Part shown: positions 34,947 to 36,968 of the stretch, piece by piece
Layout: every line of letters starts with the position of its first letter
How positions within the stretch are numbered: the first letter of the stretch is position 1
Program-made: the position numbers and the translations under genes
Notes under the pieces: generated by a model
The model's input: only the letters and a program-made list of their open reading frames with translations
Told to the model about the DNA's origin: nothing
Database searches by the model: none
Assembly: GCA_902556405.1 (NCBI GenBank)
Contig: CACDWF010000019.1
Span: 1-36,968 of the forward strand
DNA: 36,968 bases
From: an uncultured Alphaproteobacteria bacterium
GTDB taxonomy: Bacteria; Pseudomonadota; Alphaproteobacteria; Rhodobacterales; Rhodobacteraceae
Direction: 5' to 3'

Positions 34947-35852
34947 TCAGATCTTCATTATTTTTGAACAAAACACATCTAATTGTTCTAAGTCTTTATA
35001 TTTTATTATGATACTGCCTCCCCCAGAATTTTCATTGTGATCAATAACGGTCTTTAGGCCTAGGGCCATTTTTAGGTCTTGTTCTAGATTTAGGGTGTCA
35101 ACATCTTTTTCAATTGATTTGTCCTTTTTTATTTTATTACTACTTTGAGCTATTCCTTTTTTTACTATATTTTCTATATCCCTGACTGATAGACCTTCTT
35201 CAATTATTTTCGTCGCCAAAAATTCCGAGTTTTTTACTCCGACTAGCGATCTTGCATGCCCGCTAGTCAATTTACCTTCTTTTAAAAATTTAATTATGCT
35301 CTCTGGGAGGGAAAGAAGTCTTAAAGAATTAGCAATATAACTTCTTGATTTTCCTAATGATGACGAAACTTTTTCTTGGGTATAGCCAAATTCTCTAATC
35401 AATTGATGATATGAATTTGCTTCTTCAATTGGATTTAGGTCTACCCTCTGAATGTTTTCAATAATGGAAATTTTAACAACCTCTTCATCGGTCAACTCTT
35501 TAATCAATACCGGAACCTCATGTATTTTAGCAATTTGCGCAGCTCTCCATCGCCTTTCACCAGCTACTATTTCGTAAAAACTATTATTCTTTCTGACAAG
35601 AATGGGTTGTATTATTCCAGTTTCTCTTATTGAAGATGCCAAGCTTTTTAACTCATCTTCTGAAAAGTCTTTTCGAGGTTGATTCTGATTCGGTACAAGT
35701 TGTTCTATTGGAAGGAAATTGGAACTATTGGATGCCTTGTTAACCTCATTTTCTCCGTTACTGATCTCAACTATTTCGTCAAAACTGTCAACATCTAAAA
35801 AGGATGACAGCCCTCTACCCAAACCTTTTTTTCGTTCATTTTTTGAACTCAT
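34947..35852 (-). CDS. parB: Chromosome partitioning protein ParB
   Basis: CTP-dependent DNA clamp that loads at parS sites near the origin and spreads to guide segregation with ParA. The start is ATG at 35852 (301 aa), with AAGGA close upstream; the frame continues to a TTG at 35867 that is less likely. Motifs: the N-terminal KKGLGRGLSSFL ParA-contact region, the CTP-binding GERRWRAAQ and IIENIQRVDLNPIEEA, the helix-turn-helix GYTQEKVSSSLGKSRSYIANSLRLL, and LTSGHARSL. It overlaps the parA 3' end by 17 bases. I found no full parS palindrome in the window. Confidence 0.95.
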   Translation of the reverse strand: MSSKNERKKGLGRGLSSFLDVDSFDEIVEISNGENEVNKASNSSNFLPIEQLVPNQNQPRKDFSEDELKSLASSIRETGIIQPILVRKNNSFYEIVAGERRWRAAQIAKIHEVPVLIKELTDEEVVKISIIENIQRVDLNPIEEANSYHQLIREFGYTQEKVSSSLGKSRSYIANSLRLLSLPESIIKFLKEGKLTSGHARSLVGVKNSEFLATKIIEEGLSVRDIENIVKKGIAQSSNKIKKDKSIEKDVDTLNLEQDLKMALGLKTVIDHNENSGGGSIIIKYKDLEQLDVFCSKIMKI

Positions 35853-36639
35853 TTTTCCTTCTTTCAAAGTGATCTTCCCTCTTTAAAAATTCCGCTGCTA
35901 ATTTTTGATACGCAATAGCACCAGAACATTTGTGATCATAAATTAGAGCTGGCATTGAAAACGAGGGTGCCTCACTGATCCGCACATTTCTAGGTATAAC
36001 TGTATCGTAAACAAGCTCTCCAAGATTTCCCCTTACATCTTCTTCAATTTGTTCTGATAAGTTGTTTCTCTTATCGAACATGGTCAATACGATCCCATGA
36101 ATTTTTAGGTCTTGATTAATTTTTGATCTTATATCCCTTACTGTTAATAGCAATTGACTTAGTCCCTCAAGCGCAAAAAACTCTGCTTGTAAAGGAACAA
36201 GAACAGAATTTGAAGCCACCATTGAATTTATAGTTAAAAGATTAAGAGATGGTGGACAGTCAATTAAAATATAATCAAAATCAACCTCCTCTTTCGCTAA
36301 CAGGTCACGGAGTTTAACGATTCTTCCCTTTTCCTCGAAAAGATCAACGTCAATAGATGATAAATCAGTCGATGCAGGAGCTATAGAAAGATATGGTATA
36401 TTGGTTTTTTTAACAACGTCTTTTAAACTGGCTTTACCTGTGAGTAAATCATAAGTGGAAATTTCTCTTTCATTTTTTTGAACGCCTAAACCTGTCGAAG
36501 CATTTCCCTGAGCATCTAAATCCATAATCAACACTTTATTATTCACAGCAGCTAGGGCTGTAGATAAGTTTATAGCAGTAGTTGTTTTACCTACCCCGCC
36601 TTTTTGGTTAGCAATAGATATAATTGAAGGATTAGATAT
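35836..36639 (-). CDS. parA: Chromosome partitioning ATPase ParA, apparent ATA start
   Basis: Walker-type ATPase that drives origin segregation with ParB. The deviant Walker A motif QKGGVGKTTTAINL lies at about residues 11-24 of a 267-residue product; MDLDAQGNASTGLG, IDCPPSLNLLTINS and VIPRNVRISEAPSFSMPALIYD follow. Taking the first GTG (36546) as start would delete the P-loop, so it cannot be right. Upstream of the P-loop the frame is open to a TAA at 36658-36660 and contains no ATG, GTG, TTG or CTG. ATA at 36637-36639 gives an N-terminus M-SNPSIISIANQKGG that matches ParA, with AGGGA six bases before it and rsmG ending 11 bases upstream. A sequence error (ATG read as ATA) is the main alternative. 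Confidence 0.9.
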   Translation of the reverse strand: MSNPSIISIANQKGGVGKTTTAINLSTALAAVNNKVLIMDLDAQGNASTGLGVQKNEREISTYDLLTGKASLKDVVKKTNIPYLSIAPASTDLSSIDVDLFEEKGRIVKLRDLLAKEEVDFDYILIDCPPSLNLLTINSMVASNSVLVPLQAEFFALEGLSQLLLTVRDIRSKINQDLKIHGIVLTMFDKRNNLSEQIEEDVRGNLGELVYDTVIPRNVRISEAPSFSMPALIYDHKCSGAIAYQKLAAEFLKREDHFERRKNEFKK

Positions 36640-36650
36640 TTTATTTCCCT
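36637..36650 (-). promoter_or_regulatory. Shine-Dalgarno and ATA start candidate of parA
   Basis: On the minus strand AGGGA (36650-36646), a six-base spacer AATAAA and the codon ATA (36639-36637) form a normally spaced initiation site apart from the start codon. The rsmG stop codon immediately precedes it. Initiation at ATA is inferred; ATT at 36624-36622 is a second option but has no ribosome site. Confidence 0.5.
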
Positions 36651-36968
36651 TTATCGTTTAAAAATTTTTTCCACTCTAATTATATTTCCAGAGGAGTTGC
36701 TGTGACTATCAACAACATCATAATCAAAAAACCAGTAATTTAAAGTTTTATCTAATTCGTGCCTGTAGTTTTCACCCTTCAAAAATAAACAAACACCTCT
36801 TTCCTTTCGATGATGATAAGAAATCTCAATTAGTTCCTTTAGCTCTGAAAACGCCCTTGCTGACAAGATGTCTGCATTTAAATGTTCTATTGTTCTGATA
36901 TTTTTATTCAAAACTTTTACATTTAAATCAAGTTTTCGAACGACCTCCTTGAGAAAAAAAACTTTTTT
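36651..36968 (-). CDS. rsmG: 16S rRNA (guanine527-N7)-methyltransferase RsmG, 5'-truncated by window edge
   Basis: Methylates G527 of 16S rRNA; also called GidB. Only the C-terminal 105 residues are present and the frame is open to the right edge, so the TTG at 36911 is not the start. The visible part has FFLKEVVRKLDLNVKVLN, the IEHL segment and the conserved ADILSARAFSELKELIEIS (matching the D-V-V-x-A-R-A-x-x-x-L of RsmG), then CLFLKGENY and a C-terminal beta strand pair ending VEKIFKR. It is followed by parA and parB in the standard rsmG-parA-parB order. Confidence 0.9.
   Translation of the reverse strand, partial: KKVFFLKEVVRKLDLNVKVLNKNIRTIEHLNADILSARAFSELKELIEISYHHRKERGVCLFLKGENYRHELDKTLNYWFFDYDVVDSHSNSSGNIIRVEKIFKR

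Follow-up and report, generated by a model that had tools for sequence, protein, structure and literature searches.

A conserved AUH codon as the probable translation start of parA in a genus of marine Rhodobacteraceae

The gene for the chromosome partition ATPase ParA in a genus of marine Rhodobacteraceae appears to be translated from a conserved non-canonical start codon of the form AUH (H = A, C or U), which is AUA in the species represented by the window, that is, the whole stretch of 36,968 nucleotides analyzed here; this assignment is well supported by sequence comparison across the genus. In the explanation that we favor and consider likely as a whole, the conserved AUH start is rescued by a strong Shine-Dalgarno (SD) sequence and by coupling to the upstream gene rsmG, and would limit the production of ParA, possibly rendering it sensitive to IF3.

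The parA locus and its predicted start codon

Three adjacent minus-strand genes of the window are arranged in the order rsmG, parA, parB (Table 1), the order that is usual for alphaproteobacteria; the genus shares both the proteins and the gene order with other members of this class and differs from them in the parA start. The predicted ParA protein matches the AAA_31 (204 bits) and CbiA (101 bits) domains and contains the Walker A motif KGGVGKTT near the N-terminus, a feature of chromosomal ParA (Soj), and the location of parB directly downstream and of rsmG upstream is the context of a chromosomal ParA as well. Among the NCBIfam models, 26 match this protein; none of the best 25 of the 26 reaches the cut-off, and there is no chromosomal ParA/Soj equivalog among those 25. 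In several loci of the genus (L010, L011, L015, L016 and L018), parA consists of 261 codons, not 267, so that the 17-nt overlap between parA and parB (positions 35836-35852 of the window) is absent there.

Table 1. Coordinates of the features discussed in the text (window positions unless a locus is named)
Feature	Coordinates	Strand	Remarks
rsmG (gidB), 3' part	36651..36968	minus	cut by contig end; GidB match 51.8 bits
parA coding sequence	35836..36639	minus	267 codons + TGA; ParA/Soj-type P-loop ATPase
predicted parA start codon ATA (non-canonical, AUH class)	36637..36639	minus	AUH in 20/20 same-genus orthologs; protein-level constraint from here
parA Shine-Dalgarno AAAGGGA	36646..36652	minus	duplex energy -5.5 kcal/mol in this species
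first canonical in-frame parA codon GTG (codon 32)	36544..36546	minus	downstream of P-loop; ORF list limited to ATG/GTG/TTG starts here
parB	34947..35852	minus	ATG at 35852-35850; 17-nt overlap with parA end
hemD ATT	L116:7185-7187 (G008:C3:107185); also L165-L172, L174-L178		

Read on the minus strand, the parA frame runs from an in-frame TAA (36660-36658) through ACG ATA AAG GGA AAT AAA to ATA (36639-36637), which is followed by TCT AAT CCT and then by the P-loop. The first-pass annotation of this DNA held that the frame contains no ATG, GTG, TTG or CTG from the TAA to a point past the P-loop, and none was found down to the GTG at 36546; both the position and the spacing of the ATA, which it had placed at the expected N-terminus six bases after AGGGA (36650-36646), are likewise borne out. 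Upstream of the parA start, the frame contains an additional ATA (36654-36652) as well as an ACG. The TAA of rsmG occupies positions 36653-36651, with 11 bases separating it from the parA ATA. The N-terminus of ParA predicted from the AUH start is (M)SNPSIISIANQK, with or without the Met.

A protein search for ParA in 61 genomes, the window's own and 60 relatives, yielded matches in 60, with the weak matches in some of the genomes representing other ATPases of the superfamily. Under a threshold of E 1e-50 or better, a parA ortholog is present in 20 of the 22 same-genus genomes, and the two genomes without parA are 74% and 62% complete. Some of the same-genus records bear the names of metagenome bins (MED-G56, EAC2087), and others carry AG- names, which we take to denote single-cell assemblies; judging by their names, some of the records presumably come from marine Alphaproteobacteria or Rhodobacteraceae, and the genus may be the one named MED-G52. 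All 20 orthologs, which comprise 19 distinct sequences (two are identical), contain an AUH codon at the homologous position, namely AUC in 14, AUU in 4 and AUA in 2. This recurrence goes beyond chance, and the codon is retained down to ParA protein identities of 76-77%. The start proposed earlier was AUA; its non-canonical nature holds, but what is conserved is the AUH class, AUC being the commonest variant, rather than AUA itself.

No in-frame ATG, GTG or TTG was found 6-35 codons before the P-loop motif in the listed frames of the 20 parA genes of the genus. Outside the genus, in contrast, the expected stretch of parA contains an in-frame ATG, GTG or TTG at 95 of 96 distinct loci (one duplicate was dropped), under a loose rule that accepts any such codon 6-35 codons before the motif and leaves the actual starts unproven. 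At the one locus that fails, L067, the nearest GTG is closer to the P-loop and the frame remains open for a long way upstream. The AUH codon of the genus aligns with the GTG or ATG of Rhodobacteraceae relatives (ATC TCT AAT CC versus GTG TCT GAT CC).

A case apart is L045 (2500-2570, Rhodobacteraceae NAT185), in which parA has no clear ATG, GTG or TTG near the N-terminus and could begin with CTG or ATT after AAAGGA. This locus is counted under the outgroup rule solely through codons that possibly are not its real start, and is a candidate for a second non-canonical parA start, outside the genus.

We assign the parA start to the AUH codon because every ortholog detected has it, because constraint at the protein level sets in at this point and because a strong SD precedes it at the right distance. 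Among the 18 inner-clade genomes, the variable columns at codon positions 1, 2 and 3 number 3, 4 and 4 of 5, respectively, in the five codons preceding AUH, whereas the thirty codons following it have 5, 1 and 24 of 30; this shift in variability across codon positions indicates that constraint at the protein level begins at AUH. An SD is present upstream in each of the 20 parA copies, with a mean duplex energy of -7.5 kcal/mol (range -4.8 to -11.1, with -4.8 in L019/L020) compared to -3.0 for 547 canonical starts of the genus, and 11 of 123 genes have an SD as strong on average, all these energies being calculated with an assumed anti-SD sequence instead of one taken from the 16S of this genome. 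The start region of parA is weakly folded (-4.2 versus -6.5 on average). The nearly constant position of the rsmG end also speaks for this start: the first base of the rsmG stop is located 14 nt before AUH in 17 of the 20 loci, 17 nt before it in two, and 4 nt before it in L018, the locus of which contains ambiguous bases; thus, the rsmG stop is 11-14 nt upstream of the parA start in 19 of the 20. The ATG of parB is homologous and present in all 20 genomes, and in many parB copies a TTG stands five codons before it as well.

Start codons elsewhere in the genus

The use of start codons in other genes of the genus was surveyed in conserved clusters of reading frames. The first survey included 204 clusters with 757 ORFs, among which 137 clusters had at least 3 genomes and 100 columns. 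An aligned ATG, GTG or TTG is common to 123 of these 137 clusters (468 ATG, 49 TTG and 30 GTG); the other 14 are parA, hemD and 12 that, on inspection by eye, have canonical starts falling short of exact alignment, a doubtful ORF or incomplete copies. An extended survey, in which the stretches of the first were reused and more were added, comprised 188 conserved clusters of this kind, 167 with a canonical start in common; by eye, the other 21 consist of parA, hemD and clusters that either are incomplete or show a canonical codon close to the N-terminus, cluster 16 (below) being one of them. Thus, as judged by eye, parA and hemD are the only ones of the 188 clusters whose full-length members all lack a usable canonical codon at the conserved N-terminus or ahead of it, in surveys that are blind to AUH genes with an ATG a few codons later. 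General laxity of start codons in the genus is rejected on these counts. Two-genome clusters with conserved columns before the canonical codon also occur; most of these are near-identical pairs with a close ATG and were set aside, and infC is one such cluster.

Two clusters showed conserved codons ahead of a canonical codon. Cluster 16 (G000 joined stretches, plus strand, 58854-59319; also G005 and G019), which, judging by its sequence, is probably a glyoxalase-like gene, has 12 conserved codons before the likely ATG in three genomes. In cluster 120 (G000 joined stretches, minus strand, 127602-129030; G008, 235714-237142), 16 conserved codons precede the first TTG in two genomes, a configuration that reflects either an overlap with the upstream gene or another unusual start.

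The second gene identified in the surveys, hemD, encodes uroporphyrinogen-III synthase (Pfam HEM4). Among the 15 same-genus matches, 14 have the N-terminal end present, and in all 14 an ATT is found at the conserved N-terminus after AGGAGG (AGGTGG in two); no hemD was detected in the assembly that contains the window. No in-frame canonical codon precedes the ATT in 12 of the 14; the other two have an in-frame GTG shortly upstream, so that their start is ambiguous. The ATT falls within the terminal part of the preceding reading frame, which, from its position and sequence, we take to be hemC, and because of this overlap the invariance of the ATT may have another cause. Unlike that of parA, the start region of hemD is more folded than average (-11.9 versus -6.5).

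The genus copies of infC, the classic gene with a start of this class, present a further case. All 13 copies found have an AUH codon behind AAGGAG, AUC in 11 and AUA in 2, the latter variant being present in the window's own genome (L134; G000:C3, near 41230). In 8 of the 13 copies there is an ATG seven codons downstream that could be the start, so that a clean comparison is afforded by only 5, those without a nearby ATG, which include the copy of the window's own genome. For that copy, AUA is the best start candidate on sequence grounds, and the five copies make AUH initiation in the genus likely.

Alternative readings of the parA codon

The alternative that retains the greatest, although still modest, plausibility accepts AUH as the true parA start and posits that it is merely tolerated, with the strong SD and the coupling to rsmG compensating for it and without any regulation through IF3 or the level of ParA. 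The drift of the third base among A, C and T is compatible with tolerance, as is the capacity of a strong SD to compensate. Parsimony on the parA tree of the 20 genomes gives five third-base changes at this codon, none of them to G, a count that depends on a tree with poor support for 9 of its 16 inner branches. Fourfold sites within parA served as the control, and among these G is absent in 1 of 12 sites with at least five changes and in 5 of 19 with four to six changes; against this background the absence of G at the AUH codon is only mildly unusual, in agreement with tolerance, and avoidance of G at the third base is weak evidence. However, AUG is a single change away, and yet inspection of the codon for ATG in relatives, as the first-pass annotation had suggested, finds it in none of the 20 genomes of the genus; moreover, the genus is not generally lax, as parA and hemD stand alone among the 188 clusters. 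Selection against AUG at the parA codon appears plausible, although parA alone is no proof of it. We retain limitation of ParA through the AUH start as the preferred reading.

Initiation upstream of this codon, either at the in-frame AUA or AUU (36654-36652 in the window, where it overlaps the rsmG stop as AUAA) or at the ACG, would extend ParA by five or six residues and is improbable. An AUH codon is indeed present five codons upstream in all 20 genomes, but in 17 of the 18 inner-clade genomes its second and third bases coincide with the T and A that begin the rsmG TAA, and this sharing largely explains its invariance; besides, no SD is seen before the upstream AUH, and codons -4 to -1 vary at the first and second positions. 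Even less credence can be given to a product that joins rsmG and parA through a -1 frameshift or read-through of the stop, with AUH as an internal isoleucine codon. The rsmG frame does reach parA in another frame, and in L010 and L011 the parA frame is open further upstream; however, an in-frame stop is present 7-11 codons upstream in 18 of the 20 genomes, inspection by eye revealed no slip site common to the inner clade and L019/L020, and the codons upstream of AUH show no constraint at the protein level, so that such a fusion is rejected.

Initiation at the internal GTG (36546), which would yield a ParA without the P-loop, is hardly tenable: this is the first canonical codon, with which an ORF list limited to ATG, GTG and TTG begins, but the thirty codons between it and AUH contain the P-loop and vary at only 1 of 30 second positions in the 18 genomes, and the GTG is missing in G014 and G009; the earlier judgment that GTG 36546 is not the start is upheld by this constraint. 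Finally, the first-pass annotation left a choice between true AUA initiation, which the sequence comparison supports, and a base error, and although a single A for G would turn ATG into ATA, an error or a pseudogene is refuted by the non-canonical codon in 20 of 20 relatives and by an intact, conserved ParA.

Possible translational control of ParA and related systems

The mechanism we propose follows from the pairing at the start codon. The fMet-tRNA would pair properly with just the first two bases of AUH, and IF3 would then reject most of the initiation complexes, whereas the strong SD, together with translational coupling to the close rsmG stop, would rescue enough initiation for a low output of ParA. 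The parB gene in the same operon, with its ATG, is expected to be translated more efficiently than parA, and weak initiation probably lowers ParA relative to ParB. Control of parA by IF3 may also occur, in which case a shortage of free IF3 relative to 30S subunits would increase the synthesis of ParA, as for infC. The earlier suggestion that ParA is kept low and is sensitive to IF3 fits the AUH start and may be correct. It is a more speculative proposition, which we put forward tentatively and regard as doubtful, that a small set of AUH genes (infC, parA and hemD) read via IF3 makes chromosome partition dependent on how much free IF3 there is per ribosome, such that ParA tracks translational capacity. 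To our knowledge, no growth-state link of this kind has been reported for chromosome segregation.

The AUH start of parA belongs to a known kind, that of conserved non-canonical starts limiting a gene, as in infC, sigR and ccpN; parA as a member of this group appears to be new, and no case of a non-canonical parA start was found among ranked search results from the open-access literature. The pcnB gene of E. coli reportedly has an AUU start that limits its translation, and shares this class of start with parA, although the gene and the organism are unrelated. According to the published descriptions cited here, IF3 destabilizes complexes at starts other than ATG, GTG and TTG (PMC5472188), and in vitro, an increase in IF3 reduces the full-length share for weak third-base pairs including AUU/CAU (PMC10158994). 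The gene for IF3 itself, infC, starts with ATT in E. coli and with ATC in Streptomyces (PMC5472188), and its AUU, AUC or AUA start is described as part of IF3 autoregulation (PMC5472188, PMC13009471). The parA gene of the genus has the same class of start codon with a strong SD; it differs in that it has no known link to IF3, and we infer its regulation by this factor.

Another parallel is seen in sigR of Streptomyces, which, as described in PMC5472188, is a non-infC gene with a non-canonical start and a strong SD that is conserved in one genus and was not seen in the other genera named there. It starts with GTC in 32 of 34 Streptomyces (GTT in the other 2), in contrast to AUH in parA, and is repressed by IF3, a control that is experimental for sigR and predicted for parA; the same description has the downstream partner gene made in excess (PMC5472188), which can be likened to the output predicted for parB relative to parA. 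In Firmicutes, ccpN (AUA) and cvfC1 (AUU), which encode a repressor and a small protein, respectively, in contrast to the chromosome partition ATPase of an alphaproteobacterium, have conserved starts and a strong SD like those of parA, and these starts lowered reporter output; in the S. aureus assays described, AUU and AUA starts gave about 10% of the AUG reporter output in poor medium, and ccpN up to 30% in rich medium (PMC13009471).

Overproduction of ParA in free-living Azorhizobium is described as having little effect and no visible harm (PMC6842974), so that bacteria do not generally need to keep ParA limited, although defects upon deletion or overexpression of par genes in other bacteria are cited in that paper (PMC6842974).

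Very few genes with conserved non-canonical starts are described in the papers cited here, and parA of ocean bacteria adds one to their number. It makes testable whether the fidelity of initiation sets the level of a partition protein, with the ATG of parB, present in the same operon in 20 of 20 genomes, as a built-in comparison. Gene callers that accept only ATG, GTG and TTG would place the ParA start at codon 32 and so omit the P-loop, and annotated copies may therefore look truncated.
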